This document shows positions 1-64,000 of a stretch of 64,000 bases of DNA, piece by piece; the stretch's first letter is position 1, and every line of letters starts with the position of its first letter. Location: assembly GCF_000003605.2 (NCBI RefSeq), contig NW_003150096.1, positions 1 through 64,000 of the forward strand, read 5' to 3'. The stretch is from Saccoglossus kowalevskii. Lineage: Eukaryota > Hemichordata > Enteropneusta > Harrimaniidae. Position numbers and translations under genes: made by a program. The notes under the pieces were generated by a model. The model was not told the origin of the DNA and made no database searches. It worked only from the letters and a program-made list of their open reading frames with translations.

Positions 1-634
1 TCTAACATGTTACAGTCTGTCTTGTGAACATATATAGGCTGCTTTCAACTGGCTTTTATTAAATTTGTCGACTTTACAACTGCGCGTTTCAACATGCCAA
101 CAACTTAGGTCATATATACCAATACATCTACCAACATTTCTATCATTTGGACAACTGTGCAATCACTTTGAACAACTTTGCACGTTGTGTTAACAGCTTA
201 AAACCCATTACGTGTCGACAGCATCAACAACTTGTTCTGGAAAATTAGAAGGGATTTTAAAACTTTGCATTAATTAAAAAAAATACGAAAACTTCACGAT
301 TCTCTACTATAAATGAATGGCATCACAGTTAGAAAGAATGCAAAAACGTTGCATATATCATTTCCATTTGCGTGAAGAAACAAAAAGAAAGAAAACATCC
401 AACAACTCTTTTATTTAGTGAGTCTCTCATGCAAGTACTAACCACAACCGATTGTGCTTTACTTTAGACATTGTTCGGACACCTAACCACACGGCTGCAT
501 GGATTATTTAAATTTGAGCCGAATTGACGGCTATTTCTTGTTTTGAATGTTCTAAAATTGATATCGCTGGCACAAGTACATTCTAATATTGACCTATGAC
601 CTCCTCATAACTCGAGTAACACTTCGCTAATTTA
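1..634 (+). repeat. Satellite unit 0, 5'-truncated by window edge, T2 tail
   Basis: This is the last two-thirds of a unit, starting at the TAACATGTTA dyad. It carries the T2 tail (CAACCGATT, GGACACC, ATAACTCGAG) and leads into an N head. Its own variants are a one-base loss in the TGTTC dyad near 20, CATTTGGACAACTGTGC near 145, and an extra GTCGAC at about 214 where other units read GTGCCGAC. Confidence 0.95.
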
Positions 635-1581
635 ATGGCTAATTACGAAATATTAGGTGACATTTTCGAACTTTTAACTATGGGACGTGTTAATATGATA
701 TCACAGGTAACTATCCCGAGTGAATCTATGAACTTTGCAATCGCTTTTTACAACTTTGTAAGCAGTTTGTCGCCGATTTCTCGGTTCGCTATTGTGATAA
801 CCAGCTTATATTTGAGGCATTTTCGAGATATTCACTTAACATTTTCCAAATTTAACTGCGGGGTCGTCATGCCAATGACTTAGGTTAAATACACGATCAA
901 CGCCGTCAACATTTCAATAATTTGTTTGCTACTTTGCACGCTGTGTTCTAACATGTTACAGTCTGTTCTTGTGAACAAATATAGGCTGCTTTCAACTGGC
1001 TTTTATTAAATTTGTCGACTTTACAACTGCGCGTTTCAACATGCCAACAACGTAGGTCATATATACCAATACATCTACCAACATTTCTATCATTTTGCAC
1101 AACTTTGCAATCACTTTGAACAACTTTGCACGTTGTGTTAACAGCTTAAAACCCATTACGTGCCGACAGCATCAACAACTTGTTCTTGAAAATTAGAAGG
1201 GATTTTAAAACTTTGCATTAATTAAAAAAATACGAAAACTTCATGATTCTCTACTATAAATGAATGGCATCACAGTTAGAAAGAATGCAAAAACGTTGCA
1301 TATATCATTTCGATTTGCGTGAAGAAACAAAAAGAAAAAAAACATCCAACAACTCTTTTATTCAGGGAGTCTCCCATGCAAGTACTAACCACGACCGATT
1401 GTGCTTTACTTTAGACATGGTTCGGTCACCTAACCATACGGCTGCGTGGATTATTTAAATTTGAGCCGAATTGACGGCTATTTCTTGTTTTGAATGTTCT
1501 AAAATTGATATCGCTGGCACAAGTACATTCTAATATTGTCCTATGACCTCCTCATATCTCGAGTAACACTTCGCTAATTTA
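635..1581 (+). repeat. Satellite unit 1, N head / T1 tail
   Basis: A 947-bp unit with a full 82-codon frame and a full 64-codon frame. It carries GAACAAATATAGG after the dyad, a marker of N units. The tail has the rare pair ATTTCGATTTGCG and ACATGGTTCGG, shared with unit 60 about 56 kb away. Confidence 0.96.
1464..1479. other. Inverted repeat AGCCG-AATTGA-CGGCT in the unit tail
   Basis: A perfect 5-bp stem around six bases, found in the tail of most units. Several O units break it (GACAGCT in units 6, 7, 22 and 30; GAGCAGAATTG in units 16 and 45). It is therefore not strictly kept. Confidence 0.7.
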
Positions 1582-1830
1582 ATGGCTATTTACGAAATAT
1601 TAGGTGACATTTTCGAACTTTTAACTATGGGACGTGTTAATATGATATCACAGGTAACTATCACGAGTAAATCTATCAACTTTGCAATCGCTTTTTACAA
1701 CTTTGTAAGCAGTTTGTCGCCGATTTCACGGTTCGCTATTGTGATAACCAGCTTATATGTGAGGCATTTTCGAGATATTCACTTAACATTTTCCAAATTT
1801 AACTGCGGGGTCGTCATGCCAATGACTTAG
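1582..1830 (+). other. Recurrent 82-codon ORF (reference copy), probably not a gene
   Basis: An open frame starting MAIYEILGDIFELL and ending NCGVVMPMT lies at the head of the unit and is complete, or nearly so, in 45 of 67 anchored units. I recognise no family or domain; it has a mildly hydrophobic middle. Differences between copies mostly change amino acids (I/N, T/A, P/T, E/K, M/I/T, A/V), with few silent ones. Twenty-two units have stops, frame shifts or no start. That pattern fits an open frame carried passively by a young repeat. The frame spans sub-repeat A and part of its predecessor. Confidence 0.75.
1653..1829 (+). repeat. Internal sub-repeat A (177 bp) in reference unit 2
   Basis: It starts GGTAACTAT and ends AACTGCGGGGTCGTCATGCC followed by AATGACTTA. 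It aligns along its length with the next 172 bp. Shared blocks are the GGT start, TCAAC.TT.CAAT, ACTTTG.A.GC.GT, TTGTGA, and the end AACTGCG with CATGCCAA..AC.TA. The same segments recur in every intact unit. Confidence 0.8.
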
Positions 1831-2001
1831 GTTAAATACACGATCAACGCCTTCAACATTTCAATAATTTGTTTGCTACTTTGCACGCAGTGTTCTAACA
1901 TGTTACAGTCTGTTCTTGTGAACATATATAGGCTGCTTTCAACTGGCTTTTATTAAATTTGTCGACTTTACAACTGCGCGTTTCAACATGCCAACAACGT
2001 A
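1830..2001 (+). repeat. Internal sub-repeat B (172 bp) in reference unit 2
   Basis: It starts GGTTAAATACACGATC and ends AACTGCGCGTTTCAACATGCC followed by AACAACGTA. It is a diverged copy of sub-repeat A; by eye a little over half of aligned positions agree. It contains the dyad cluster at 1896-1924. Length near 172 bp is close to one nucleosome repeat. Confidence 0.8.
1896..1924. other. Paired dyads TAACATGTTA and TGTTC-TTGT-GAACA
   Basis: In unit 2, 1896-1905 is a perfect 10-bp palindrome and 1911-1924 is a perfect 5-bp inverted repeat around four bases. The same pair sits at this place in most N and I units (for example 949-977 in unit 1). In many O units the first reads TAACATTTTA, and in units with the 12-bp deletion the second reads TGTTTTTGTGAACA, so the dyads are lost. 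Confidence 0.8.
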
Positions 2002-2226
2002 GGTCATATATACCAATACATCTACCAACATTTCTATCATTTTGCACAACTTTGCAATCACTTTGAACAACTTTGCACGTTGTGTTAACAGCTTAAAACC
2101 CATTACGTGCCGACAGCATCAACAACTTGTTCTTGAAAATTAGAAGGGATTTTAAAACTTTGCATTAATTAAAAAAATACGAAAACTTCATGATTCTCTA
2201 CTATAAATGAATGGCATCACAGTTAG
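2002..2226 (+). repeat. Internal sub-repeat C (~225 bp, end uncertain) in reference unit 2
   Basis: It starts GGTCATATATACC and shares CCAACATTTCTAT and GCACGTTGTGTTAACA with sub-repeat B. It appears longer because a ~21-bp piece (AACTTTGCAATCACTTTG / AACTTTGCACG) is doubled inside it. The end at ATCACAGTTAG resembles the A/B ends only loosely. Confidence 0.55.
2154..2185 (+). other. A-tract cluster, possible intrinsic bend
   Basis: A runs of 4, 7 and 4 bases are centred near 2155, 2174 and 2183, spaced close to two and one helical turns. A second A-rich stretch follows at 2276-2289. Both recur in every unit and vary in length between copies (6-9 bases in the first), the main source of one-base length differences. 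Confidence 0.6.
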
Positions 2227-2405
2227 AAAGAATGCAAAAACGTTGCATATATCATTTCCATTTGCGTGATGTAACAAAAAGAAAAAAAACATCCAACAAC
2301 TCTTTTATTCAGGGAGTCTCCCATGCAAGTACTAACCACGACCGATTGTACTTTACTTTAGACATTGTTCGGTCACCTAACCATACGGCTGCGTGGATTA
2401 TTTAA
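2211..2405 (+). other. Recurrent 64-codon ORF (reference copy), probably not a gene
   Basis: A second open frame (MASQLERMQKRC at the start, NHTAAWII at the end) lies in the second half of many N and I units. It includes the A-rich slippage stretch, so its frame is lost whenever the A run changes length, as in most O units. It starts 380 bp after the end of the first frame. No family is recognisable. A TATAAAT sequence sits just before its ATG, but at a distance of a few bases that does not suit a promoter. Confidence 0.75.
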
Positions 2406-2528
2406 ATTTTATCCGAATTGACGGCTATTTCTTGTTTTGAATGTTCTAAAATTGATATCGCTGGCACAAGTACATTCTAATATTGTCCTATGACCTCCTC
2501 ATATCTCGAGTAACACTTCACTAATTTA

Positions 2529-3475
2529 ATGGCTATTTATGAAATATTAGGTGACATTTTCGAACTTTTAACTATGGGACGTGTTAATATGATATCACAG
2601 GTAACTATCACGAGTAAATCTATCAACTTTGCAATCGCTTTTTACAACTTTGTAAGCAGTTTGTCGCCGATTTCACGGTTCGCTATTGTGATAACCAGCT
2701 TATATGTGAGGCATTTTCGAGATATTCACTTAACATTTTACAAATTTAACTGCGGGGTCGTCATGCCAATGACTTAGGTCAAATACACGATCAACGCCTT
2801 CAACATTTCAATAATTTGTTTGCTACTTTGCACGCAGTGTTCTAACATGTTACAGTCTGTTCTTGTGAACATATATAGGCTGCTTTCAACTGGCTTTTAT
2901 TAAATTTGTCGACTTTACAACTGCGCGTTTCAACATGCCAACAACGTAGGTCATATATACCAATACATCTACCAACATTTCTATCATTTTGCACAACTTT
3001 GCAATCACTTTGAACAACTTTGCACGTTGTGTTAACAGCTTAAAACCCATTACGTGCCGACAGCATCAACAACTTGTTCTTGAAAATTAGAAGGGATTTT
3101 AAAACTTTGCATTAATTAAAAAAATACGAAAACTTCATGATTCTCTACTATAAATGAATGGCATCACAGTTAGAAAGAATGCAAAAACGTTGCATATATC
3201 ATTTCCATTTGCGTGATGTGACAAAAAGAAAAAAAACATCCAACAACTCTTTTATTCAGGGAGTCTCCCATGCAAGTACTAACCACGACCGATTGTGCTT
3301 TACTTTAGACATTGTTCGGTCACCTAACCATACGGCTGCGTGGATTATTTAAATTTGAGCCGAATTGACGGCTATTTCTTGTTTTGAATGTTCTAAAATT
3401 GATATCGCTGGCACAAGTACATTCTAATATTGTCCTATGACCTCCTCATATCTCGAGTAACACTTCACTAATTTA
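2529..3475 (+). repeat. Satellite unit 3, I head / T1 tail
   Basis: A 947-bp unit. It is marked by ATGGCTATTTATG at the anchor, TTTTACAAATTT near 2740 and AGGTCAAATAC after the ORF stop. Unit 4 shares these, so the two are adjacent sister copies. Confidence 0.96.
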
Positions 3476-4422
3476 ATGGCTATTTATGAAATATTAGGTG
3501 ACATTTTCGAACTTTTAACTATGGGACGTGTTAATATGATATCACAGGTAACTATCACGAGTAAATCTATCAACTTTGCAATCGCTTTTTACAACTTTGT
3601 AAGCAGTTTGTGGCCGATTTCACGGTTCGCTATTGTGATAACCAGCTTATATGTGAGGCATTTTCGAGATATTCACTTAACATTTTACAAATTTAACTGC
3701 GGGGTCGTCATGCCAATGACTTAGGTCAAATACACGATCAACGCCTTCAACATTTCAATAATTTGTTTGCTACTTTGCACGCTGTGTTCTAACATGTTAC
3801 AGTCTGTTCTTGTGAACATATATAGGCTGCTTTCAACTGGCTTTTATTAAATTTGTCGACTTTACAACTGCGCGTTTCAACATGCCAACAACGTAGGTTA
3901 TATATACCAATACATCTACCAACATTTCTATCATTTGCACAACTTTGCAATCACTTTGAACAACTTTGCACGTTGTGTTAACAGCTTAAAACCCATTACG
4001 TGCCGACAGCATCAACAACTTGTTCTTGAAAATTAGAAGGGATTTTAAAACTTTGCATTAGTTAAAAGAAATACGAACACTTCACGATTCTCTACTATAA
4101 ATGAGTGGCATCACAGATAGAAAGAATGCAAAAACGTTGCCTATATCATTTCCATTTGCGTGATGTAACAAAAAGAACAAAACATCCTACAATTTTTTTT
4201 ATTTAGGGAGTCTCCCATGCAAGTACTAACCACGACCGATTGTGCTTTACTTTAGACATTGTTCGGTCACCTAACCACATGGCTGCGTGGATTATTTAAA
4301 TTTGAGCCGAATTGACGGCTATTTCTTGTTTTCAATGTTCTAAAATTGATATCGCTGGCACAAGTACATTCTAAAATTGACCTATGACCTCCTCATATCT
4401 CGAGTAACACTTCGCTAATTTA
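3476..4422 (+). repeat. Satellite unit 4, I head / O tail (chimera)
   Basis: A 947-bp unit. The head matches unit 3 (TTTATG, TTTTACAAA) plus a private TGGCCG change. From about 4060 the sequence is the divergent class (GTTAAAAGAAATACG, GAGTGGC, no 64-codon frame). It ends the first homogenised block. Confidence 0.94.
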
Positions 4423-5368
4423 ATGGCTATTTACGAAATATTAGGTGACATTTTCGAACTTTTAGCTATGGGACTTGTTAATATGATATCACAGGTAACT
4501 ATCCCGAGTGAATCTATGAACTTTGCAATCGCTTTTTACAACTTTGTAGGCAGTTTGTCGCCGATTTCTCGGTTCGTTATTGTGATAACCAGCTTATATG
4601 TGAGGCATTTTCGAGATATTCACTTAACATTTTACAAATTTAACTGCGGGGTCGTCATGCCAATGACTTAGGTTAAATACACGATCAACGCCGTCAACAT
4701 TTCAATAATTTATTTGCTACTTTGCACGCTGTGTTCTAACATTTTACAGTCTGTTCTTGTGAACATATATAGGCTGCTTTCAACTGACTTTTATTAAATT
4801 TGTCGACTTTACAACTGCGCGTTTCAACATGCCAACAACTTAGGTCATATATACAAATACATCTACCATCATTGCTATCCCTTTGCACAACTTTGCAATC
4901 ACTTTGAACAACTTTGAACGTTGTGTTAACAGCTTAAAAACTATTACGTGCCGACAGCATCAACAACTTGTTCTGGAAAATTAGAAGGGATTTTAAAACT
5001 TTGCATTAATTAAAAAAATACGAAAACTTCACGATTCTCTATTATAAATGAGTGGCATCACAGTTCGGAAGAATGCAAAAACGTTGCCTATATCATTTCC
5101 ATTTGCGTTATGTAACAAAAAGAAAAAAACATCCAACAACTTTTTTATTCAGGGAGACTCCTATGCAAGTACTAACCACGACCGATTGTGCTTTACTTTA
5201 GACATTGTTCGGTCACCTAACCACACGGCTGCATGGATTATTTAAATTTGAGCCGAATTGACGGCTATTTCTTATTTTGAATGTTCTAAAATTGATATCG
5301 CTAGCACAAGTACATTCTAGAATTGACCTATGACCTCCTCATATCTCGAATAACACTTCGCTAATTTA
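4423..5368 (+). repeat. Satellite unit 5, O head / O tail
   Basis: A 946-bp divergent unit. It has TTTTAGCTATGGGACTT in the head, TAACATTTTAC in place of the TAACATGTTA dyad, and CCATCATTGCTATCCC in the middle. Its tail reads CTAGAATTGACC, typical of the older class. Confidence 0.95.
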
Positions 5369-6304
5369 ATGGCTATTTACGAAATATCAGGTGACATTTT
5401 CGAACTTTTAACTATGGGACGTGTTAATATGATATCACAGGTAACTATCCCGAGTAAATCTACCAACTTTGCAATCGCTTTTTACAACTTTGTAAGCAGT
5501 TTGTCGCCGATTTCTCGGTTCGCTATTGTGATAACCAGCTTATATGTGAGGCATTTTCGAGATATTCACTTAACATTTTCCAAATTTAACTGCGGTTTCG
5601 TCATGCCAATGACTTAGGTTAAATACACGATCAACGCCGTCAACATTTCAATAATTTGTTTGCTGTGTTCTAACATTTTACAGTCTGTTTTTGTGAACAT
5701 ATATAGGCTGCTTTCAACTGGCTTTTATTAAATTTGTCGACTTCACAAATGAGCGTTTCAACATGCCAACAACTTAGGTCATATATACAAATACATCTAT
5801 CATCATTGCTATCTCTTTGCGCAACTTTGCAATCACTTTGAACAACTTTGCACGTTGTGTTAACAGCTTAAAAACTATTACGTGCCGACAGCATCAACAA
5901 CTTGTTCTGGAAAATTAGAAGGGATTTTAAAACTTTGCATTAATTAAAAAAATACGAAAACTTCACGATTCTCTATTATAAATGAGTGGCATCACAGTTA
6001 CGAAGAATGCAAAAACGTTGCCTATATCATTTCCATTTGCGTGATGTAACAAAAAGAAAAAAAAACATCCAACAACTTTTTTATTCAGGGAGTCTCCTAT
6101 GCAAGTACTAACCACGACCGATTGTGCTTTACTTTAGACATTGTTCGGTCACCTAACAACACGGCTGCATGGATTATTTAAATTTGAGCCGAATTGACAG
6201 CTATTTCTTGTTTTGAATGTTCTAAAATTGATATCGCTGGCACAAGTACATTCTAGAATTGACCTATGACCTCCTCATATCTCCAGTAACACTTCGCTAA
6301 TTTA
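5369..6304 (+). repeat. Satellite unit 6, O type with 12-bp deletion
   Basis: A 936-bp unit lacking 12 bp at about 5664, where TTTGCT joins GTGTTC directly. The second half of the dyad cluster reads TGTTTTTGTGAACA. The tail ends ATCTCCAGTAAC. Confidence 0.95.
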
Positions 6305-7239
6305 ATGGCTATTTACGAAACATTAGGTGACATTTTCTAACTTTTAGCTATGGGACGTGTTAATATGATATCACAGGTAACTATCCCGAGTAAATCTACC
6401 AACTTTGCAATCGCTTTTTACAACTTTGTAAGCAGTTTGTCGCCGATTTCTCGGTTCGTTATTGTGATAACCAGCTTATATGTGAGGCATTTTCGAGATA
6501 TTCCCTTAACATTTTCCAAATTTAACTGCGGGGTCGTCATGCCAATGACTTAGGTTAAATACACGATCAACGCCGTCAACATTTCAATAATTTGTTTGCT
6601 GTGTTCTAACATTTTACAGTCTGTTTTTGTGAACATATATAGGCTGCTTTCAACTGGCTTTTATTAAATTTGTCGACTTCACAAATGAGCGTTTCAACAT
6701 GCCAACAACTTAGGTCATATATACAAATACATCTACCATCATTGCTATCTCTTTGCGCAACTTTGCAATCACTTTGAACAACTTTGCACGTTGTGTTAAC
6801 AGCTTAAAAACTATTACGTGCCTACAGCATCAACAACTTGTTCTGGAAAATTAGAAGGGATTTTAAAACTTTGCATTAATTAAAAAAATACGAAAACTTC
6901 ACGATTCTCTATTATAAATGAGTGGCATCACAGTTACGAAGAATGCAAAAACGTTGCCTATATCATTTCCATTTGCGTGATGTAACAAAAAGAAAAAAAA
7001 CGTCCAACAACTTTTTTATTCAGGGAGTCTCCTATGCAAGTACTAACCACGACCGATTGTGCTTTACTTTAGACATTGTTCGGTCACCTAACCACACGGC
7101 TGCATGGATTATTTAAATTTGAGCCGAATTGACAGCTATTTCTTGTTTTGAATGTTCTAAAATTGATATCGCTGGCACAAGTACATTCTAGAATTGACCT
7201 ATGACCTCCTCATATCTCCAGTAACACTTCGCTAATTTA
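6305..7239 (+). repeat. Satellite unit 7, O type with 12-bp deletion
   Basis: A 935-bp unit with the same 12-bp loss as unit 6 (about 6600). The 82-codon frame is interrupted early by TTCTAAC. It is close to unit 6 in its second half (CACAAATGAGCG, ATCTCCAG), so the two look like tandem sister copies. Confidence 0.95.
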
Positions 7240-8189
7240 ATGGCTATTTACGAAACATTAGGTGACATTTTCTAACTTTTAGCTATGGGACGTGTTAATA
7301 TGATATCACACGTAACTATCCCGAGTAAATCTACCAACTTTGCAATCGCTTTTTACAACTTTGTAAGCAGTTTGTCGCCGATTTCTCGGTTCGTTATTGT
7401 GATAACCAGCTTATATGTGAGGCATTTTCGAGATATTCTCTTAACATTTTCCAACTTTAACTGCGGGGTCGTCATGCCAATGACTTAGGTTAAATACACG
7501 ATCAACGCCGTCAACATTTCAATAATTTGTTTGCTACTTTGCACTTTGTGTTCTATTATGTTACAGTCCGTTCTTGTGAACATATATAGGCTGCTTTCAA
7601 CTAGCTTTTATTAAATTTGTCGACTTCACAACTGTGCGTTTCTATATGCCAACAACGTAGGTCATATATACAAATACATCTACCAACATTTCTATCATTT
7701 TGCACAACTTTGCAATCACTTTGAACAACTTTGAACGTTGTGTTAACACCTTAAAACCCATTACGTGCCGACAGCATCAACAACTTGTTCTTGAAAATTA
7801 GAAGAGATTTTAAAACTTTGCATTAATTAAAAAAAATAAGAAAACTTCACGATTCTCTAATATAAATGAGTGGCATCCCAGTTAGAAAGAATACAAAAAC
7901 GTTGCATATATCATTTCCATTTGCGTGATGTAACAAAAAGAAAAAAAAACATCCAACAACTTTTTTTATTTAGGGAGTCTCCCATGCAAGTTTTAACCAC
8001 GACAAATTGTGCTTTACTTTAGACATTGTTCGGTCACCTAACCACACGGCTGCATGGATCTTTTAAATTTGAGCCGAATTGACGGCTAGTTCTTGTTTTG
8101 AATGTTCTAAAATTGATATCGCTGGCACAAGTACATTCTAGAATTGACCTATGACCTTTTCATATTTCGAGTAACATTTCGCTAATTTA
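7240..8189 (+). repeat. Satellite unit 8, O type
   Basis: A 950-bp unit that shares the early TTCTAAC stop with unit 7 but lacks the 12-bp deletion. It carries GCACTTTGTGTTCTATTATG near 7543 and CAAGTTTTAACCACGACAAATTG near 7986. The latter is found again in unit 33. Confidence 0.95.
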
Positions 8190-9123
8190 ACGGCTGTTTA
8201 TGAAATATTTATTGACATTTTCGAACTTTTAACTATGGGACGTGTTAATATGATATCACAGGTAACAATCCCGAGTGAATCTACCAACTTTGCAATCGCT
8301 TTTTACAACTTTGTAAGCAGTTTGTCGCCGATTTCTCGGTTCGCTATTGTGATAACCAGCTTATATGCGAGGCATTTTCGAGATATTCACTTAACATTTT
8401 CCAAATTTAACTGCGGGGTCGTCATGCCAATGACTTAGGTTAAATACACGATCAACGCCGTCAACATTTCAATAATTTGTTTGCTGTGTTCTAACATTTT
8501 ACAGTCTGTTTTTGTGAACATATATAGGCTGCTTTCATCTGGCTTTTATTAAATTTGTCAACTTTACAACTGCGCGTTTCAATATGCCAACAACTTAGGT
8601 CATATATACAAATACATCTACCATCATTGCTATCCCTTTGCACAACTTTGCAATCACTTTGAACAACTTTGCACGTTGTGTTAATAGCTTAAACACCATT
8701 ACGTGCCGACAGCATCAACAACTTGTTCTTGAAAATTAGAAGGGATTTTAAAACATTGCATTAATTAAAAAAATACGAAAACTTCACGATTCACTACTAT
8801 AAATGAATGGCACCACAGTTAGAAAGAATGCAAAAACGTTGCTTATATCATTTCCATTTGCGTGATGTAACAAAAAGAAAAAAACATCCAACGAATTTAT
8901 TATTTAGGGAGTCTCCCATGCAAGTACTAACCACGACCGATTGTGCTTTACTTTAGATAGTGGTCGGTCACCTAACCACACGGCTGCATGGATTATTTAA
9001 ATTTGAGCCGAATTGACGGCTATTTCTGGTTTTGAATGTTCTAAAATTGTTATCGGTGGCACAAGTACATTCTAGAATTGACCTATGACCTTTTCATATT
9101 TCGAGTAACATTTCGCTAATTTA
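8190..9123 (+). repeat. Satellite unit 9, O type, ACG at anchor, 12-bp deletion
   Basis: A 934-bp unit, the shortest complete one. The anchor is ACGGCTGTTTATG followed by TATTTATTGAC, so the usual ATG is absent. The 12-bp loss is at about 8485. The single SalI-type GTCGAC site is changed to GTCAAC near 8558. Confidence 0.95.
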
Positions 9124-18592: not shown

Positions 18593-19537
18593 ATGGCTAT
18601 TTACGAAATATTAGGTGACATTTTCGAACTTTTAACTATGGGACGTGTTAATATGATATCACAGGTAACTATCACGAGTAAATCTATCAACTTTGCAATC
18701 GCTTTTTACAACTTTGTAAGCAGTTTGTCGCCGATTTCACGGTTCGCTATTGTGATAACCAGCTTATATGTGAGGCATTTTCGAGATATTCACTTAACAT
18801 TTTCCAAATTTAACTGCGGGGTCGTCATGCCAATGACTTAGGTTAAATACACGATCAACGCCTTCAACATTTCAATAATTTGTTTGCTACTTTGCACGCA
18901 GTGTTCTAACATGTTACAGTCTGTTCTTGTGAACATATATAGGCTGCTTTCAACTGGCTTTTATTAAATTTGTCGACTTTACAACTGCGCGTTTCAACAT
19001 GCCAACAACTTAGGTCATATATACCAATACATCTACCAACATTTCTATCATTTGCACAACTGTGCAATCACTTTGAACAACTTTGCACGTTGTGTTAACA
19101 GCTAAACCCATTACGTGCCGACAGCATCAACAACTTGTTCTTGAAAATTAGAAAGAGATTTAAAACTTTTGCATTAATTAAAAAAATACGAAATCTTCAC
19201 GATTCTCCAATATAAATGAGTGGCATCACAGTTAGGAAGAATGCAAAAACGTTGCCTATATCATTTCCATTTGCGTGATGTAACAAAAAGAAAAAAATAT
19301 TCAACAACTTTTTTTATTTAGGGAGCCTCCCGTCCAAGTACTAACCACGACCGATTGTGCTTTACTTTAGACATTGTTCGGTCACCTAACCACACGTCAG
19401 CATGGATTATTTAAATTTGAACCGAATTGACGGCAATTTCTTGTTTTGAATGTTCTAAAATTGATATCGCTGGCACAAGTACATTCTAATATTGACCTAT
19501 GACCTCCTCATATCTCGAGTAACACTTCGCTAATTTA
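18593..19537 (+). repeat. Satellite unit 20, I head / O tail (chimera)
   Basis: A 945-bp unit. The I head and following 450 bp match unit 2. From about 19100 small losses (CAGCTAAACCC) and older variants (GAGTGGC, CCTCCCGTCC) take over, so the exchange point lies near 19090. Confidence 0.95.
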
Positions 19538-20474
19538 ATGGCTATTTACGAAATATTAGGTGACATTTTCGAACTTTTAACTATGGGACGTGTTAAGATG
19601 ATATCACAGGTAACTATCCCGAGTAAATCCACCAACTTTGCAATCGCTTTTTACAACTTTGTAAGCAGTTTGTCGCCGATTTCTCGGTTCGTTATTGTGA
19701 TAACCAGCTTATATGTGAGGCATTTTCGAGATATTCACTTAACATTTTCCAAATTTAACTGCGGGGTCGTCATGCCAATGACTTAGGTTAAATACACGAT
19801 CAACGCCGTCAACATTTCAATAATTTGTTTGCTGTGTTCTAACATTTTACAGTCTGTTTTTGTGAACATATATAGGCTGCTTTCAACTGGCTTTCATTAA
19901 ATTTGTCGACTTCACAAATGAGCGTTTCAACATGCCAACAACTTAGGTCATATATACAAATACATCTATCATCATTGCTATCTCTTTGCGCAACTTTGCA
20001 ATCACTTTGAACAACTTTGCACGTTGTGTTAACAGCTTAAAAACTATTACGTGCCGACAGCATCAACAACTTGTTCTGGAAAATTAGAAGGGATTTTAAA
20101 ACTTTGCATTAATTAAAAAAATACGAAAACTTCACGATTCTCTATTATAAATGAGTGGCATCACAGTTACGAAGAATGCAAACACGTTGCCTATATCATT
20201 TCCATTTGCGTGATGTAACAAAAAGAAAAAAAAAACATCCAACAACTTTTTTATTCAGGGAGTCTCCTATGCAAGTACTAACCACGACCGATTGTGCTTT
20301 ACTTTAGACATTGCTCGGTCACCTAACAACACGGCTGCATGGATTATTTAAATTTGAGCCGAATTGACAGCTATTTCTTGTTTTGAATGTTCTAAAATTG
20401 ATATCGCTGGCACAAGTACATTCTAGAATTGACCTATGACCTCCTCATATCTCCAGTAACACTTTGCTAATTTA
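19538..20474 (+). repeat. Satellite unit 21, O type with 12-bp deletion
   Basis: A 937-bp unit. The 12-bp loss is at about 19833. It has GTTAAGATG and AAATCCACC in the head. From there to unit 24 the order of variants resembles 5369-9123. Confidence 0.95.
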
Positions 20475-21420
20475 ATGGCTATTTACGAAACATTAGGTGA
20501 CATTTTCTAACTTTTAGCTATGGGACGTGTTAATATGATATCACAGGTAACTATCCCGAGTAAATCTACCAACTTTGCAATCGCTTTTTACAACTTTGTA
20601 AGCAGTTTGTCGCCGATTTCTCGGTTCGTTATTGTGATAACCAGCTTATATGTGAGGCATTTTCGAGATATTCACTGAACATTTTCCAACTTTAACTGCG
20701 GGGTCGTCATGCCAATGACTTAGGTTAAATACACGATCAACGCCGTCAACATTTCAATAATTTGTTTGATACTTTGCACGCTGTGTTCTAACATTTTACA
20801 GTCTGTTCTTGTGAACATATATAGGCTGCTTTCATCTGGCTTTTATTAAATTTGTCAACTTTACAACTGCGCGTTTCAATATGCCAACAACTTAGGTCAT
20901 ATATACAAATACATCTACCATCATTGCTATCCCTTTGCACAACTTTGCAATCACTTTGAACAACTTTGCACGTTGTGTTAATAGCTTAAACACCATTACG
21001 TGCCGACAGCATCAACAACTTGTTCTTGAAAATTAGAAGGAATTTTAAAACATTGCATTAATTAAAAAAATACGAAAACTTCACGATTCACTACTATAAA
21101 TGAATGGCACCACAGTTAGAAAGAATGCAAAAACGTTGCTTATATCATTTCCATTTGCGTGATGTAACAAAAAGAAAAAAACATCCAACGAATTTATTAT
21201 TTAGGGAGTCTCCCATGCAAGTACTAACCACGACCGATTGTGCTTTACTTTAGATAGCGGTCGGTCACCTAACCACACGACTGCATGGATTATTTAAATT
21301 TGAGCCGAATTGACAGCTATTTCTTGTTTTGAATGTTCTAAAATTGATATCGCTGGCGCAAGTACATTCTAGAATTGACCTATGACCTCCTCATATCTCC
21401 AGTATCACTTCGCTAATTTA
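20475..21420 (+). repeat. Satellite unit 22, O type
   Basis: A 946-bp unit with the early TTCTAAC stop seen in units 7 and 8. It has ATTCACTGAAC (shared with unit 30) and GTCAACTT in place of the GTCGAC site near 20857. The tail ends ATCTCCAGTATCAC, which lets an upstream ATG at 21382 read into the next unit's frame. Confidence 0.95.
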
Positions 21421-22356
21421 ATGGCTATTTACGAAATATTAGGTGACATTTTCGAACTTTTAACTATGGGACGTGTTAATATGATATCACAGGTAACAAT
21501 CCCGAGTGAATCTACCAACTTTGCAATCGCTTTTTACAACTTTGTAAGCAGTTTGTCGCCGATTTCTCGGTTCGCTATTGTGATAACCAGCTTATATGCG
21601 AGGCATTTTCGAGATATTCACTTAACATTTTCCAAATTTAACTGCGGGGTCGTCATGCCAATGACTTAGGTTAAATACACGATCAACGCCGTCAACATTT
21701 CAATAATTTGTTTGCTGTGTTCTAACATTTTACAGTCTGTTTTTGTGAACATATATAGGCTGCTTTCATCTGGCTTTTATTAAATTTGTCAACTTAACAA
21801 CTGCGCGTTTCAATATGCCAACAACTTAGGTCATATATACAAATACATCCACCATCATTGCTATCCCTTTGCACAACTTTGCAATCACTTTGAACAACTT
21901 TGCACGTTGTGTTAATAGCTTAAACACCATTACGTGCCGACAGCATCAACAACTTGTTCTTGAAAATTAGAAGGGATTTTAAAACATTGCATTAATTAAA
22001 AAAAATACGAAAACTTCACGATTCACTACTATAAATGAGTGGCACCACAGTTAGAAAGAATGCAAAAACGTTGCTTATATCATTTGCATTTGCGTGATGT
22101 AACAAAAAGAAAAAAACAACCAACGAATTTATTATTTAGGGAGTCTCCCATGCAAGTACTAACCACGACCGATTGTGCTTTACTTTAGATAGTGGTCGGT
22201 CACCTAACCACACGGCTGCATGGATTATTTAAATTTGAGCCGAATTGACGGCTATTTCTGGTTTTGAATGTTCTAAAATTGTTATCGGTGGCACTAGTAC
22301 ATTCTAGAATTGACCTATGACCTTTTCATATTTCGAGTAAACATTTCGCTAATTTA
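21421..22356 (+). repeat. Satellite unit 23, O type with 12-bp deletion
   Basis: A 936-bp unit with the 12-bp loss at about 21715. The ORF is intact and extended upstream to 21382 by loss of a stop. The second half matches unit 9 (TTAGATAGTGGTCGG, TTATCGGTGGCAC). The GTCGAC site is GTCAAC here. Confidence 0.95.
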
Positions 22357-29937: not shown

Positions 29938-30970
29938 ATGGCTATTTACGAAATATTAGGTGACATTTTCGAACTTTTAACTATGGGACGTGTTAATATG
30001 ATATCACAGGTAACTATCCCGAGTGAATCTATCAACTTTGCAATCGCTTTTTACAACTTTGTAAGCAGTTTGTCGCCGATTTCTCGGTTCGCTATTGTGA
30101 TAACCAGCTTATATGTGAGGCATTTTCGAGATATTCACTTAACATTTTCCAAATTTAACTGCGGGGTCGTCATGCCAATGACTTAAGTTAAATTCACGAT
30201 TAACGCCATCAACATTTCAATAATTTGTTTGCTACTTTGCACGCTGTGTTCTAACATTTTACGTCTGTTCTTGTGAACATATATAGGCTGCTTTCAACTG
30301 GCTTTTATTAAATTTGTCGACTTTACAACTGCGCGTTTCGACATGCCTACAACTTAGGTCATATATACAAATACATCTACCATCATTGCTATCCCTTTGC
30401 ACAACTTTGCAATCACTTTGAACAACTTTGCACGTTGTGTTAACAGCTTTAAACCCATTACGTGCCGACAGCATCAACAACTTGTTCTGGAAAATTAGAT
30501 GGGATTTTAAAACTTCGCATTAATTAAAAAAAACGAAAACTTCACGATTCTCTAATATAAATGAGTGGCACCACAGTTAGGAAGAATGCAAAAACGTTGC
30601 CTATATCATTTCCATTTGCGTGATGTAACAAAATGAAAAAAACACCCAACAACTTTTTTTATTTAGGGAGTCTCCCATGCAAGTACTAACCACGACCGAT
30701 TGTGCTTTACTTTAGACATTGTTCCCTCACCTAACCACATGGCTGCAAGAATTATGTGTTATCTAATATAAATGAGTGGCACCACAGTTAGGAAGAATGC
30801 AAAAACGTTGCCTATATCATTTCCATTTGCGTGATGGCTTTATTTAAATTTGAGGCGAATTGACGGCTATTTCTTGTTTTGAATGTTCTAAAATTGATAT
30901 AGCTGGCACAAGTACATTCTAATATTGACCTATGACCTCCTCATATCTCGAGTAACACTTCGCTAATTTA
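29938..30970 (+). repeat. Satellite unit 32, O type, 1033 bp with templated insertion
   Basis: The longest single unit. It has an intact 82-codon frame and the ATTTTACGTCTG / TTTCGACATGCCTAC haplotype. It is about 86 bp longer than normal because a 75-base stretch from 30551-30625 is copied again at 30762-30836. Confidence 0.96.
30762..30836 (+). repeat. Exact 75-bp direct copy of 30551-30625
   Basis: The segment from TCTAATATAAATGAG to TTGCGTGATG is base-for-base the same as 30551-30625 in the same unit. Short filler bases flank it (TGTTA on the left, GCTTT on the right), and it interrupts the usual GAATTATTTAAATTTGAG. It looks like template-switch repair of a break. Confidence 0.95.
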
Positions 30971-31921
30971 ATGGCTATTTACGAAATATTAGGTGACATT
31001 TTCGAACTTTTAACTATGGGACGTGTTAATATGATATCACAGGTAACTATCCCGAGTGAATCTATCAACTTTGCAATCGCTTTTTACAACTTTGTAAGCA
31101 GTTTGTCGCCGATTTCTCGGTTCGCTATTGTGATAACCAGCTTATATGTGAGGCACTTTCGAGATATTCACTTAACATTTTCCAAATTTAAATGCGGAAT
31201 CGCCATGCCAATGACTTAGGTTAAATACACAATCAACGCCGTCAACATTTCAATAATTTGTTTGCTACTTTGCACGCAGTGTTCTAACATGTTACAGTCT
31301 GTTCTTGTGAACATATATAGGCTGCTTTCAACTGGCTTTTATTAAATTTGTCGACTTCACAACTGCGCGTTTCTATATGCCAACAACGTAGGTCATATAT
31401 ACAAATACATCTACCAACATTTTCTATCATTTTGCACAACTTTGCAATCACTTTGAACAACTTTGAACGTTGTGTTAACACATTAAAACCCATTACGTGC
31501 CGACAGCATCAACAACTTGTTCTTGAAAATTAGAAGAGATTTTAAAACTTTGCATTAATTAAAAAAAATAAGAAAACTTCACGATTCTCTAATATAAATG
31601 AGTGGCATCCCAGTTAGAAAGAATACAAAAACGTTGCATATATCATTTCCATTTGCGTGATGTAACAAAAAGAAAAAAAAACATCCAACAACTTTTTTTA
31701 TTTAGGGAGTCTCCCATGCAAGTTTTAACCACGACAAATTGTGCTTTACTTTAGACATTGTTCGGTCACCTAACCACACGGCTGCATGGATCTTTTAAAT
31801 TTGAGCCGAATTGACGGCTAGTTCTTGTTTTGAATGTTCTAAAATTGATATCGCTGGCACAAGTACATTCTAATATTGACCTATGACCTCCTCATATCTC
31901 GAGTAACACTTCGCTAATTTA
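30971..31921 (+). repeat. Satellite unit 33, O type
   Basis: A 951-bp unit. The head has AAATGCGGAATCGCC, a private change near the ORF end. The tail carries CAAGTTTTAACCACGACAAATTG and GGATCTTTTAAATT, the same as unit 8, about 23.7 kb away. Confidence 0.95.
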
Positions 31922-33816: not shown

Positions 33817-34763
33817 ATGGCTATTTACGAAATATTAGGTGACATTTTCGAACTTTTAGCTATGGGACGTGTTAATATGATATCACAGGTAACTATCCCC
33901 AGTGAATCAATCAACATTGCAATCGCTTTTTACAACTTTGTAAGCAGTTTGTCGCCGATTTCACGGTTCGCTATTGTGATAACCCAGCTTATATGTGAGG
34001 CATTTTCGAGATATTCACTTAACATTTTACAAATTTAACTGCGGGGTCGTCATGCCAATGACTTAGGTTAAATACACGATCAACGCCTTCAACGTTTGAA
34101 TAATTTGTTTGCTACTTTGCACGCTGTGTTCTAACATGTTACAGTCTGTTCTTGTGAACATATATAGGCTGCTTTCAACTGGCTTTTATTAAATGTGTCG
34201 ACTTTACAACTGCGCGTTTCAACATGCCAACAACGTAGGTCATATATACCAATACATCTACCAACATTTCTATCATTTTGCACAACTTTGCAATCACTTT
34301 GAACAACTTTGCACGTTGTGTTAACAGCTTAAAACCCATTACGTGCCGACAGCATCAACAACTTGTTCTTGAAAATTAGAAGGGATTTTAAAACTTTGCA
34401 TTAATTAAAAAAATACGAAAACTTCATGATTCTCTACTATAAATGAATGGCATCACAGTTAGAAAGAATGCAATAACGTTGCTTATATCATTTCCATTTG
34501 CGTGATGTAACAAAAAGAAAAAAAACATCCAACAACTCTTTTATTCAGGGAGTCTCCCATGCAAGTACTAACCACGACCGATTGTGCTTTACTTTAGACA
34601 TTGTTCGGTCACCTAACCATACGGCTGCGTGGATTATTTAAATTTGAGCCGAATTGACGGCTATTTCTTGTTTTGAATGTTCTAAAATTGATATCGCTGG
34701 CACAAGTACATTCTAATATTGTCCTATGACCTCCTCATATCTCGAGTACACTTCGCTAATTTA
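33817..34763 (+). repeat. Satellite unit 36, O head / T1 tail (chimera)
   Basis: A 947-bp unit. The head matches unit 35 (CCCCAGTGAATC) with one added C (AACCCAGC) that shifts the ORF. From about 34090 it is T1-class (CGCCTTCAAC, ATTGTCCT) but with GATGTAAC and CAATAACG. Confidence 0.95.
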
Positions 34764-35707
34764 ATGGCTATTTACGAAATATTAGGTGACATTTTCGAAC
34801 TTTTAACTGTGGGACGTGTTAATATGATATCACAGGTAACTATCACGAGTGAATCTATCAATTTTGCAATCGCTTTTTACAACTTTGTAAGCAGTTTGTC
34901 GCCGATTTCTCGATTCATTATTGTGATAACCAGCTTATATGTGAGGCATTTTCGAGATATTCACTTAACATTTTACAAATTTAACTGCGGGGTCGTCATG
35001 CCAATGACTTAGGTTAAATACACAATCAACGCCTTCAACATTTCAATAATTTGTTTGCTACTTTGCACGCAGTGTTCTAACATGTTACAGTCTGTTCTTG
35101 TGTACATATATAGGCTGCTTTCAACTGTCTTTTATTAAATTTGTCGACTTCACAACTGCGCGTTTCTATATGCCAACAACGTAGGTCATATATACCAATA
35201 CATCTACCAACATTTCTATCATTTTGCACAACTTTGCAATCACTTTGAACAACTTTGCACGTTGTGTTAACAGCTTAAAACCCATTACGTGCCGACAGCA
35301 TCAACAACTTGTTCTTGAAAATTAGAAGAGATTTTAAAACTTTGCATTAATTAAAAAAAATACGAAAACTTCACGATTCTCTAATATAAATGAGTGGCAT
35401 CACAGTTAGGAAGATTGCAAAAACGTTGCCTATATCATTTCCATTTGCGTGATGTAACAAAAAAAAACATCCAACAACTTTTTATATTTAGGGAGTCTCC
35501 CGTCCAAGTCCTAACCACGAACGAGTGAGCTTTACTTTAGACATTGTTCAGTCACCTAACCACACGGCTGCATGGATTATTTAAATTTGAGCCGAATTGA
35601 CGGCTATTTCTTGTTTTGAATGTTCTAAAATTGATATCGCTGGCACAAGTACATTCTAATATTGACCTATGACCTCCTCATATCTCGAGTAACACTTCGC
35701 TAATTTA
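34764..35707 (+). repeat. Satellite unit 37, distinct subtype shared with unit 62
   Basis: A 944-bp unit. ACTGTGGGACG, CTCGATTCATTATTG, TGTGTACATATA and CAACTGTCTTTTATT occur together only here and at 58437. Just upstream one base is missing (GAGTACAC), so an ATG at 34719 reads through into this frame. The tail has CCCGTCCAAGTCC. Confidence 0.96.
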
Positions 35708-57489: not shown

Positions 57490-58436
57490 ATGGCTATTTA
57501 CGAAATATTAGGTGACATTTTCGAACTTTTAACTATGGGACGTGTTAATATGATATCACAGGTAACTATCACGAGTAAATCTATCAACTTTGCAATCGCT
57601 TTTTACAACTTTGTAAGCAGTTTGTCGCCGATTTCACGGTTCGCTATTGTGATAACCAGCTTATATGTGAGGCATTTTCGAGATATTCACTTAACATTTT
57701 CCAAATTTAACTGCGGGGTCGTCATGCCAATGACTTAGGTTAAATACACGATCAACGCCTTCAACATTTCAATAATTTGTTTGCTACTTTGCACGCAGTG
57801 TTCTAACATGTTACAGTCTGTTCTTGTGAACATATATAGGCTGCTTTCAACTGGCTTTTATTAAATTTGTCGACTTTACAACTGCGCGTTTCAACATGCC
57901 AACAACGTAAGTCATATATACAAATACATCTACCATAATTGCTATCATTTTGCACAACTTTGCAATCACTTTGAACAACTTTGCACGTTGTGTTAACAGC
58001 TTAAAACCCATTACGTGCCGACAGCATCAACAACTTGTTCTTGAAAATTAGAAGGGATTTTAAAACTTTGCATTAATTAAACAAATACGAAAACTTCATG
58101 ATTCTCTACTATAAATGAATGGCATCACAGTTAGAAATAATGCAAAAACGTTGCATATATCATTTCCATTTGCGTGAAGAAACAAAAAGAAAAAAAACAT
58201 CCAACAACTCTTTTATTCAGGGAGTCTCCCATGCAAGTACTAACCACGACCGATTGTGCTTTACTTTAGACATTGTTCGGTCACCTAACCATACGGCTGC
58301 GTGGATTATTTAAATTTGAGCCGAATTGACGGCTATTTCTTGTTTTGAATGTTCTAAAATTGATATCGCTGGCACAAGTACATTCTAATATTGTCCTATG
58401 ACCTCCTCATATCTCGAGTAACACTTCGCTAATTTA
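57490..58436 (+). repeat. Satellite unit 61, I head / T1 tail
   Basis: A 947-bp unit. A standard I head is followed by AACGTAAGTC, CCATAATTGC and AGAAATAATGC. It closes the large homogenised block. Confidence 0.96.
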
Positions 58437-59379
58437 ATGGCTATTTACGAAATATTAGGTGACATTTTCGAACTTTTAACTGTGGGACGTGTTAATATGA
58501 TATCACAGGTAACTATCCCGAGTGAATCTATCAATTTTGCAATCGCTTTTTACAACTTTGTAAGCAGTTTGTCGCCGATTTCTCGATTCATTATTGTGAT
58601 AACCAGCTTATATGTGAGGCATTTTCGAGATATTCACTTAACATTTTACAAATTTAACTGCGGGGTCGTCATGCCAATGACTTAGGTTAAATACACAATC
58701 AACGCCGTCAACATTTCAATAATTTGTTTGCTACTTTGCACGCAGTGTTCTAACATGTTACAGTCTGTTCTTGTGTACATATATAGGCTGCTTTCAACTG
58801 TCTTTTATTAAATTTGTCGACTTCACAACTGCGCGTTTCTATATGCCAACAACGTAGGTCATATATACCAATACATCTACCAACATTTCTATCATTTTGC
58901 ACAACTTTGCAATCACTTTGAACAACTTTGCACGTTGTGTTAACAGCTTAAAACCCATTACGTGCCGACAGCATCAACAACTTGTTCTTGAAAATTAGAA
59001 GAGATTTTAAAACTTTGCATTAATTAAAAAAATACGAAAACTTCACGATTCTCTACTATAAATGAATGGCATCACAGTTAGAAAGATTGCAAAAACGTTG
59101 CCTATATCATTTCCATTTGCGTGATGTAACAAAAAAAAACATCCAACAACTTTTTATATTTAGGGAGTCTCCCGTCCAAGTCCTAACCACGACCGAGTGA
59201 GCTTTACTTTAGACATTGTTCAGTCACCTAACCACACGGCTGCATGGATTATTTAAATTTGAGCCGAATTGACGGCTATTTCTTGTTTTGAATGTTCTAA
59301 AATTGATATCGCTGGCACAAGTACATTCTAATATTGACCTATGACCTCCTCATATCTCGAGTAACACTTCGCTAATTTA
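58437..59379 (+). repeat. Satellite unit 62, distinct subtype shared with unit 37
   Basis: A 943-bp unit. It has the same ACTGTGGGACG, CTCGATTCATTATTG, TGTGTACATATA, CTGTCTTTTATT and CCCGTCCAAGTCC set as unit 37, 23.7 kb upstream. The units that follow the two copies differ. Confidence 0.96.
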
Positions 59380-60328
59380 ATGGCTATTTACGAAATATTA
59401 GGTGACATTTTCGAACTTTTAGCTATGGGACGTGTTAATATGATATCACAGGTAACTATCCCGAGTAAATTCACCAACTTTGCAATCGCTTTTTACAACT
59501 TTGTAAGCAGTTTGTCGCCGATTTCTCGGTTCGTTATTGTGATAACCAGCTTATATGTGAGGCATTTTCGAGATATTCACTTAACATTTTCCAAATTTAA
59601 CTGCGGGGTCGTCATGCCAATGACTTAGGTTAAATACACGATCAACGCCGTCAACATTTCAATAATTTGTTTGCTACTTTGCACGCTGTGTTCTAACATG
59701 TTACAGTCTGTTCTTGTGAACATATATAGGCTGCTTTGAACTGGCTTTTATTAAATTTGTCGACTTTACAACTGCACGTTTCAACATACCAACAACTTAG
59801 GTCATATATACAAATTCATCTACCAACATTTCTATCATTTTGCTCAACTGTGCAATCACTTTGAACAACTTTGCACGTTGTGTTAACAGCTTAAAACCCA
59901 TTACGTGCCGACAGCATCAACAACTTGTTCTTGAAATTTAGAAGAGATTTTAAACTTTGCATTAATTAAAAAAAAAAATACGACACTTCACCGATTCTCC
60001 ATTATTATATGAGTGGCATCACAGTTAGGAAGAACGCAAAAACGTTGCCTATATCATTTCCATTTGCGTGATGTAACAAAAAAAAAAAACATCCAACAAC
60101 TTTTTTATTTAGGGAGTCTCCCATGCAAGTACTAACGACGACCGATTGTGCTTTACTTTAGACATTGTTCGGTCACCTAACCACACGGCTGCATGGCTTA
60201 TTTAAATTTGAGCCGAATTGACGGCTATTTCTTGTTTTGAATGTTCTAAAATTGATATCGCTGGCACAAGTACATTCTAATATTGACCTATGACCTCCTC
60301 ATATCTCGAGTAACACTTCGCTAATTTA
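59380..60328 (+). repeat. Satellite unit 63, O type
   Basis: A 949-bp unit with TTTTAGCTATGGG and TAAATTCACC in the head. The second half is unusually altered (TGCTCAACTG, a longer A run, TCCATTATTATATGAG). Confidence 0.95.
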
Positions 60329-61278
60329 ATGGCTATTTACGAAATATTAGGTGACATTTTCGAACTTTTAACTATGCGACGTGTTAATATGATATCACAG
60401 GTAACTATCCCGAGTGAATCTATCAACTTTGCAATCGCTTTTTACAACTTTGTATCAGTTTGTCGCCAATTTCTCGGTTCGCTATTGTGATAACCAGCTT
60501 ATATGTGAGGCATTTCCAAGATATTCACTTAACATTTTCCAAATTTAACTGCAGGGTCGTCATGCCAATGACTTAGGTTAAATTCACGATTAACGCCATC
60601 AACATTTCAATAATTTGTTTGCTACTTTGCACGCTGTGTTCTAACATTTTACGTCTGTTCTCGTGAACATATATAGGCTGCTTTCAACTGGCTTTTATTA
60701 AATTTGTCGACTTTACAACTGCGCGTTTCGACATGCCTACAACTTAGGTCATATATACAAATACATCTACCATCATTGCTATCCCTTTGCACAACTTTGC
60801 AATCACTTTGAACAACTTTGCACGTTGTGTTAACAGCTTAAAAACTATTACGTGCCGACAGCATCAACAACTTGTTCTGGAAAATTAGAAGGGATTTTAA
60901 AACTTTGCATTAATTAAAATAAATACGAAAATTTCACGATTCTCTAATATAAATGAGTGGCACCACAGTTAGAAAGAATACAAAAACGTTGCATATATCA
61001 TTTCCATTTGCGTGATGTAACAAAAAGAGAAAAAAAAACATCCAACAATTTTTTTTATTTAGGGAGTCTCCCGTGCAAGTACTAAACACGACCGATTGTG
61101 CTTTACTTTAGACATTGTTCGGTCACCTAACCACACGGCTGCATGGATTATTTAAATTTGAGCCGAATTGACGGCTATTTCTTGTTTTGAATGTTCTAAA
61201 ATTGATATCGCTGGCACAAGTACATTCTAATATTGACCTATGACCTTCTCATATCTCGAGTAACACTTCGCTAATTTA
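60329..61278 (+). repeat. Satellite unit 64, O type
   Basis: A 950-bp unit with TATGCGACG and the one-base loss TTTGTATCAGTTTG shared with units 16, 17 and 65. It also has the ATTTTACGTCTG / TTTCGACATGCCTAC haplotype. Confidence 0.95.
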
Positions 61279-62644
61279 ATGGCTATTTACGAAATATTAG
61301 GTGACATTTTCGAACTTTTAACTATGGGACGTGTTAATATGATATCACAGGTAACTATCGCGAGTGAATCTACCAACTTTGCAATCGCTTTTTATAACTT
61401 TGTATCAGTTTGTTGCCAATTTCTCGGTTCGCTATTGTGATAACCAGCTTATATGTGAGGCATTTTCGAGATATTCACTTAACATTTTCCGAATTTAACT
61501 GCGGGGTCGTCATGCCAATGACTTAGGTTAATTACACGATCAACGCCGTCAACATTTCAATAATTTGTTTGCTACTTTGCACGCTGTGTTCTAACATTTT
61601 ACAGTCTGTTCTTGTGAACATATATAAGCTGCTTTCAACTGGCTTTTATTAAATTTGTCGACTTCACAACTGCGCGTTTCTATATGCCAACAACGTAGGT
61701 CATATATACCAATACATCTACCAACATTTCTATCATTTTGCACAACTTTGCAATCACTTTGAACAACTTTGCACGTTGTGTTAACAGCTTAAAACCCATT
61801 ACGTGCCGACAGCATCAACAACTTGTTCTGGAAAATTAGAAGAGATTTTAAAACTTTGCATTAATTAAAAAAAATACGAAAATTTCACGATTCTCTAATA
61901 TAAATGAGTGGCACCACAGTTAGAAAGAATACAAAAACGTTGCATATATTATTTCCATTTGCGTGATGTAACAAAAAGAAAAAAACATCCAACAAATTTG
62001 CACGCTGTGTTCTAACATTTTACGTCTGTTCTTGTGAACATATATAGGCTGCTTTCAACTGGCTTTTATTAAATTTGTCGACATTACAACTGCGCGTTTC
62101 GACATGCCTACAACTTAGGTCATATATACAAATACATCTACCATCATTGCTATCCCTTTGCACAACTTTGCAATCACTTTGAACAACTTTGCACGTTGTG
62201 TTAACAGCTTAAAAACTATTAAGTGCCGACAGCATCAACAACTTGTTCTGGAAAATTAGAAGGGATTTTAAAACTTTGCATTAATTAAAAAAATACGAAA
62301 ACTTCACGATTCTCTATTATAAATGAGTGGCATCACAGTTAGGAAGAATGCAAAAACGTTGCCTATATCATTTCCATTTGCGTGATGTAACAAAATGAAA
62401 AAAACATCCAACAACTTTTTTTATTTAGGAAGTCTCCCATGCAAGTAATAACCACGACCGATTGTGCTTTACTTTAGACATCGTTCCCCCACCTAACCAC
62501 ACGGCTGCGTGGATTATTTAAATTTGAGCCGAATTGACGGCTATTTCTTGTTTTGAATGTTCTAAAATTGATATAGCTGGCACAAGTACATTCTAATATT
62601 GACCTATGACCTCCTCATATCTCGAGTAACACTTCGCTAATTTA
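61279..62644 (+). repeat. Satellite units 65a/65b fused by a ~528-bp deletion
   Basis: The interval between anchors is 1366 bp, about 528 bp short of two units. The first part runs normally to CATCCAACAA at about 61996. It then joins TTTGCACGCTGTG, a point about 300 bp into the next unit. The second copy therefore has no anchor or ORF. The rest (61997-62644) has the ATTTTACGTCTG and GTTCCCCCACC variants of unit 17. Confidence 0.96.
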
Positions 62645-63594
62645 ATGGCTATTTACGAAATATTAGGTGACATTTTCGAACTTTTAACTATGGGACGTGT
62701 TAACATGATATCCCAGATAACTATCCCGAGTGAATCTACAAACTTTGCAATCGCTTTTTAAAACTTTGTAAGCAGTTTGTCGCCGATTTCTCGGTTCGCT
62801 ATTGTGATAACCAGCTTATATGTGAGGCATTTTCGAGTTATTCACTTAACATTTTCCAAATTTAACTGCGGGGTCGTCATGCCAATGACTTAGGTTAATT
62901 ACACGATCAACGCCGTCAACATTTCAATAATTTGTTTGCTACTTTGCACGCTGTGTTCTAACATTTTACAGTCTGTTCTTGTGAACATATATAAGCTGCT
63001 TTCAACTGGCTTTTATTAAATTTGTCGACTTCACAACTGCGCGTTTCTATATGCCAACAACGTAGGTCATATATACAAATACATCTACCAACATTTCTAT
63101 CATTTTGCACAACTTTGCAATCACTTTGAACAACTTTGCACGTTGTGTTAACAGCTTAAAACCCATTACGTGCCGACAGCATCAACAACTTGTTATGGAA
63201 AATTAGAAGAGATTTTAAAACTTTGCATTAATTAAAATAAATACGAAAATTTCACGAGTCTCTAATATAAATGAGTGGCACCACAGTTAGAAAGAATACA
63301 AAAACGTTGCATACATCATTTCCATTTGCGTGATGTAACAAAAAGAAAAAAAAACATCCAACAATTTTTTTTATTTAGAGAGTCTCCTATGCAAGTACTA
63401 ACCACGACCGATTGTGCTTTACTTTAGACATTGTCCGGTCACCTAACCACACGGCTGCATGGATTATTTAAATTTGAGCCGAATTGACGGCTATTTCTTG
63501 TTTTGAATCTTCTCAAATTGATATAGCTGGCACAAGTACATTCTAATATTGACCTATGACCTCCTCATATCTCGAGTAACACTTCGCTAATTTA
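62645..63594 (+). repeat. Satellite unit 66 (950 bp), O type, copy of unit 14
   Basis: It has CGAGTTATTC, ATATATAAGCTG, TTGTTATGGAAAATT, TTAAAATAAATACG and GCATACATC as in unit 14, but no GAAATATAAGG stop. The frame is broken instead by a stop in TTTTTAAAAC. It has TTAACATGATATCCCAG in the head. Confidence 0.95.
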
Positions 63595-64000
63595 ATGGCT
63601 ATTTACGAAATATTAGGTGACATTTTCGAACTTTTAACTATGGAACGTGTTAATATGATATCACAGGTAACTATCCCGAGTGAATCTATCAACTTTGCAA
63701 TCGCTTTTTACAACTTTGTAAGCAGTTTGTCGCCGATTTCTCGGTTCGCTATTGTGATAACCAGCTTATATGTGAGGCATTTTCAAGATATTCACTTAAC
63801 ATTTTCCAAATTTAAATGCGGGGTCGTCATGCCAATGACTTAGGTTAAATACACAATCAACGCCGTCAACATTTCAATAATTTGTTTGCTACTTTGCACG
63901 CAGTGTTCTAACATGTTACAGTCTGTTCTTGTGAACATATATAGGCTGCTTTCAACTGGCTTTTATTAAATTTGTCGACTTCACAACTGCGCGTTTCTAT
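63595..64000 (+). repeat. Satellite unit 67, 3'-truncated by window edge, copy of unit 13
   Basis: The first 406 bp of a unit. CTATGGAACG, TTTTCAAGAT and TTTAAATGCGG together match unit 13 (11962). The array runs off the end of the window without any sign of stopping. Confidence 0.95.

Follow-up and report, generated by a model that had tools for sequence, protein, structure and literature searches.

Satellite DNA in switchgrass centromeres has long units of 792 and 1,131 bp that are composed of ~175-bp monomers together with a truncated one, as set out in the part of the report consulted here (PMC4053949). A second known satellite, from another phylum, consists of two related halves. Here we compare with these a satellite that fills a 64,000-bp stretch of the genome of the acorn worm Saccoglossus kowalevskii (the window, i.e. 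the whole stretch analyzed; contig NW_003150096.1) and has a unit of ~947 bp. The likeness to switchgrass – a long unit built of diverged nucleosome-sized repeats – is one of description; switchgrass is a plant, its monomers remain recognizable variants, and nothing like the ~413-bp unrelated block of the acorn worm unit is described in that part of the report. The two-halves satellite is likewise similar by description, with an old short repeat inside a longer and younger unit, but here there are three related copies and an unrelated block.

No description of a 947-bp satellite was found among the papers listed in literature searches by unit length or by sequence words, and the one '947 bp' encountered, in the accessible text of a satellite paper, is part of 30,947 bp. 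A satellite from an acorn worm or any hemichordate was also not found among titles and the opening parts of abstracts. In the text that could be searched of a hemichordate genome paper (PMC11175523), neither 'satellite' nor 'tandem repeat' occurs, and 'centromer' occurs once, in a reference. A preliminary description of the window, made from its letters, had suggested that the unit may be undescribed, and these searches – of literature only, without satellite or nucleotide databases – agree with it. The family is thus probably undescribed, but ordinary as a kind of sequence.

The evidence presented below indicates that this is very probably a non-coding nuclear satellite family of composite origin, whose units are kept alike by local exchange. 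The composite make-up of the unit and its division into three subfamilies are additions to the preliminary description.

Results

The window corresponds to bases 1–64,000 of a 72,085-bp contig (C4018) in an assembly of 572 Mb and 4,830 contigs. A profile built from the window's own 947-bp units matches 63,953 of the 64,000 bases in 71 rows, all of them on the forward strand, in accord with the single orientation reported previously; the same profile and threshold gave no matches in one mononucleotide-shuffled window. Profile matches and unit intervals together define an array (1..64000, forward strand) of 66 full ~947-bp units, one rearranged unit and two partial units, and the satellite continues past the window to the end of C4018 at 72,085. 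Unit-start intervals for the full units (n=65) are tightly distributed, with 63 lying within 933–952 bp (21 of 947, 11 of 948 and nine of 946), and the remaining two (1,980 and 1,371) cross irregular units.

The irregular units were delimited by profile matches on the forward strand. The rearranged unit (30250..31282; 1,033 bp) follows the model from position 1 to 509, then repeats 302–378 and resumes at 505–947, and the cut unit (61590..62010) consists of the first 408 bp of a unit (61590–61997) and a short link to the start of the next. That link (61998–62010) is, at 13 bp, the longest stretch of the window without a profile match. The second partial unit is the 93 bp of unit start at the window's end. 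The array had previously been called unbroken, which holds apart from the irregular units; the 67 regularly spaced anchors counted at that time correspond to the 66 full units plus the rearranged one. Mean pairwise identity among the 66 full units is 95.8% (range 91.6–99.8%), G+C content varies between 34.7 and 36.3% in 2-kb steps along the window, and no exact 20-mers are common to the window and its reverse strand.

Comparison of the consensus unit with itself revealed a second, older period of ~178 bp inside the 947-bp unit. Three tandem relatives, referred to as subunits A, B and C, occupy unit positions 642–819, 820–997 and 998–1175 (numbered on past the unit end) and show 62–69% identity in the longer local alignments. 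Their similarities lie 13.4 (A-B), 10.8 (A-C) and 12.6 (B-C) standard deviations above shuffled sequences, and those of the 12 other pairs of pieces between -1.2 and 2.4. A three-copy model gives 230 matches on C4018, all on the forward strand. They lie about 180 bp apart in 142 cases and about 590 bp apart in 67. Located by the self-comparison and this model, an example of subunit A lies at approximately 641..818, of B – which spans the arbitrary unit start – at approximately 819..996, and of C at approximately 997..1174, all on the forward strand. The remainder of the unit (positions 229–641, ~413 bp; for example approximately 1175..1587, forward strand) is block X, as recognized by comparison with shuffles: it resembles neither the subunits nor its own reverse complement more than shuffled sequences do, and the same holds for its two halves when compared with each other; a search of X for a terminal inverted repeat found none. 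The unit contains the motif AACTTTG five times, whereas 1,000 shuffles have it 0.1 times on average and three times at most. No clearly conserved block was found along the unit, the variance between 25-bp blocks being no more extreme than in 1,000 permutations, and the longest invariant run is 11 bp.

The same satellite occurs on other contigs. It covers C1587 (22,973 bp) and C2769 (14,675 bp) over their whole length and extends throughout the 10,000 bases read of C4594 (10,160 bp). In C4491 (41,303 bp) it occupies the first 1,000 and last 5,001 bases, with unit words along the entire contig, and in C1529 (26,113 bp) and C1592 (20,954 bp) it is present in every stretch read, the end of C1529 lying outside these. 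The units fall into three subfamilies that, as far as seen, reside on separate contigs: Subfamily I on C4018 and C1587, Subfamily II on C2769, C4491 and C4594, and Subfamily III on C1529 and C1592. For 52 chosen units (28 of I, 16 of II – 15 of them from C2769 – and eight of III), the mean identities within subfamilies are 0.956 (I-I), 0.957 (II-II) and 0.954 (III-III), and those between subfamilies are 0.926 (I-II), 0.799 (I-III) and 0.798 (II-III). The Subfamily III consensus has the three subunits at the same places. In 96 Subfamily I units, CpG is undepleted (observed/expected 1.16 in the consensus) and transitions are not in excess (1,072 versus 1,329 transversions), a combination unlike that of vertebrates and flowering plants.

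Copy numbers were estimated by counting short words in the assembly. A Subfamily II 24-mer occurs, with at most three mismatches, at 66 places (15 on C2769, 40 on C4491 and 11 on C4594), and a 22-mer of Subfamilies I and II has 140 exact copies. A 28-mer from block X, also with at most three mismatches, has 447 places (257 forward and 190 reverse), and its reversed control has none. These include 126 on C4018, C1587, C2769 and the bases read of C4594; the share of C4491 is expected to be ~43 from its size, and ~278 places are elsewhere. The places outside the Subfamily I and II contigs would also belong to Subfamily III, as seen on two such contigs and presumed for the rest. A total of 447 units would amount to ~0.42 Mb, a floor because some Subfamily III units, judged by eye, exceed the limit of three mismatches to the X 28-mer. 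For another 28-mer, at unit positions 791–818, there are only 185 places, of which 129 are forward and 56 reverse. The five Subfamily I and II contigs account for almost every forward place and for ~41 reverse ones; ~15 reverse places (56 versus ~41) are beyond these contigs. The difference between 447 and 185 prompted consideration of a dispersed transposon within block X, which was rejected because two further contigs carry, in the stretches read, whole tandem Subfamily III units, ~80% identical, so that the difference fits uneven divergence.

Neighboring units resemble each other more than units taken at random, with adjacent units of the window 96.4% alike and 2,000 shuffled orders giving a mean of 95.8% and a best value of 96.2%. 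This and the array-specific subfamilies are signs of homogenization and to that extent support the earlier view of an actively homogenized satellite. Short blocks are seen along the array, in which one very similar unit type alternates with more divergent types, and C4018 has no higher-order period, because mean identity is flat at lags 2–39 and highest for neighbors. Over 12 successive collinear units, the best mean identity between C4018 and C1587 is 97.2%, so that the two are not near-identical duplicates. A separate observation concerns five units whose profile match stops at position 931 of 947 (4735–5664, 5669–6600, 7553–8485, 18905–19833 and 20787–21716); these form two clusters, which fits local spread of one variant.

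Rearrangement junctions were seen on three contigs. In C4491, one unit switches from subunit A to subunit C within their common AACTTTGCAATC, and in the cut unit of the window position ~408 is joined to ~933 at a similar word. Some of the junctions thus sit in common AACTTTG-like motifs, which fits local unequal exchange. Five junctions in the bases read of C4594 join model position 837 to 87 or 88 to yield units of ~750 bp; two of these were compared and are identical. Short and full units alternate on this contig, with lags of 1,699, 2,648 and, best of all, 3,594 bp, and a longer period may therefore be present, perhaps in the making.

There are no Rfam matches in the window at gathering score and no tRNAs, and only one stop-to-stop frame of at least 100 aa, of 106 aa. 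This frame (34692–35012) is within one unit only and is probably due to chance. The first 2,000 bases of the window have three sub-threshold Rfam matches, to unrelated families (E 1.3–3.8). Three consensus frames compared with Pfam gave nothing above the cut-off and one match below it (E 0.09), and there was no match to a plasmid collection. We agree with the earlier statement that no genes or mobile elements are recognizable in the window. The sequences form a head-to-tail tandem array, the 52 chosen units have the likeness expected of concerted evolution, and they are non-coding by these sequence tests; they thus show the three features examined that define satellite DNA.

Two further observations concern other parts of the assembly. 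Contig C4830 is a 17,037-bp mitochondrial contig with the assembly's one COX1 match (one of five candidates scored), containing seven in-frame TGA codons. The order in the parts read is G-nd3-R-nd4l-nd4-H-S-nd5-cob, and cox1 is on the opposite strand from cox2, an unusual arrangement. AAA stands at sites that we take to be conserved lysines and ATA at several that we take to be conserved isoleucines, although ATA is also found at sites where methionine is presumably usual. In the part consulted of a published study, ATA is isoleucine in echinoderms and hemichordates, AAA is lysine in Saccoglossus, nd4l adjoins nd4, and nd5 adjoins cob in hemichordates and Xenoturbella (PMC2697986). The code and gene order of C4830 thus appear hemichordate-like, which makes an acorn worm the probable host on these data. 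Echinoderms and lancelets were rejected as hosts because of their mitochondrial gene order. Xenoturbella has the nd5-cob neighborhood and AAA as lysine in common with hemichordates, and it is opposed only by ATA at the presumed isoleucine sites. An 18S rRNA 30-mer, which we take to be usually conserved, has no exact place in the assembly, and the ribosomal DNA may be missing or different.

Discussion

We propose that a ~178-bp tandem repeat decayed to three diverged copies – A, B and C – that these came to lie beside an unrelated ~413 bp (X), and that the resulting ~947-bp block then became a new repeating unit. Subfamilies I and III both show the composite layout in their consensus, and the order of events is our proposal from it. 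Local unequal exchange and gene conversion would keep the units alike within arrays, with the old subunits acting as extra targets of exchange, and because units are kept alike inside arrays, each group of arrays would come to have its own variant. The family shows no sign of a product, and its role would be to form a block of repetitive and presumably heterochromatic DNA.

Several observations weigh against this account or limit it. The 837 to 87 junction on C4594 joins non-homologous places of subunits B and C, and it cannot be a plain B/C exchange since the places joined are not exactly homologous. The mean identity of 95.8% is too low for a very recent or strongly homogenized array. None of the contig stretches read shows an array edge that passes into unique sequence, so that the chromosomal setting and the heterochromatic state are assumptions. 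Assembly errors inside the satellite contigs are also possible, and C4018 both starts and stops within satellite, as is usual where assembly fails. It is nonetheless very improbable that the length or order of the array is an assembly artifact, because the units differ from each other (91.6–99.8% identity) and are hence not one stretch copied, and C4018 and C1587, at 97.2% over their best 12 units, are not near-identical duplicates of each other. Less probable still is a tandem array of genes, such as RNA genes: the units are long and regular, as they would be in such an array, but with no Rfam match at gathering score, only three below it in the first 2,000 bases (E 1.3–3.8), no tRNA and a single sub-cut-off Pfam match for three consensus frames (E 0.09), this can be practically discounted.

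For a composite satellite of this kind, several chromosomal settings can be considered. The preliminary description pointed to long, insertion-free arrays as often centromeric, and it is possible, although we regard it as doubtful, that the array of the window is centromeric or pericentromeric. A functional centromere satellite, in which CenH3 nucleosomes would assemble on the arrays and the subfamilies would represent the arrays of different chromosomes, is similarly unlikely. Such a role would agree with long arrays in which no insertions were detected, an ancestral period (~178 bp) of nucleosome size, subfamilies specific to arrays, satellite at every contig end examined, and the layered units known from plant and monkey centromeres, as reported in the part of the source consulted (PMC4053949). 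However, the window has no canonical CENP-B box: the core of the 17-bp motif is matched exactly on neither strand, and the best match, in the consensus, has seven of nine core letters. The unit also has no clearly conserved block, its longest invariant run being just 11 bp, and the 447 counted copies amount to only ~0.4 Mb, though the assembly may hide most of the family. Somewhat favored is a homogenized satellite without a kinetochore, whether subtelomeric, interstitial, or on a sex chromosome or B chromosome. The Subfamily II 24-mer is confined to three contigs (66 of 66 places), and there are only 140 exact copies of the Subfamily I/II 22-mer, which would fit a few loci and not all chromosomes; however, neither a telomere repeat nor a unique flank was seen, and the number of chromosomes involved cannot be told from contig counts.

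A more far-reaching proposal, and in our estimation a rather improbable one, is that this is a hemichordate centromere satellite in which each subfamily would serve its own group of chromosomes, a nucleosome-sized 178-bp ancestor having given way to a unit that spans about five nucleosome lengths and took in foreign sequence. Whatever its chromosomal position, the consensus is usable both in fluorescence in situ hybridization, as a probe, and in CenH3 mapping, as the target. The presence of old 178-bp repeats within a younger 947-bp unit, together with three subfamilies that are 80–96% alike, shows satellite turnover to have taken several steps within a single genome. The family provides a marker for the evolution of repeats, and perhaps of centromeres, in a deuterostome group for which we found no satellite in print.

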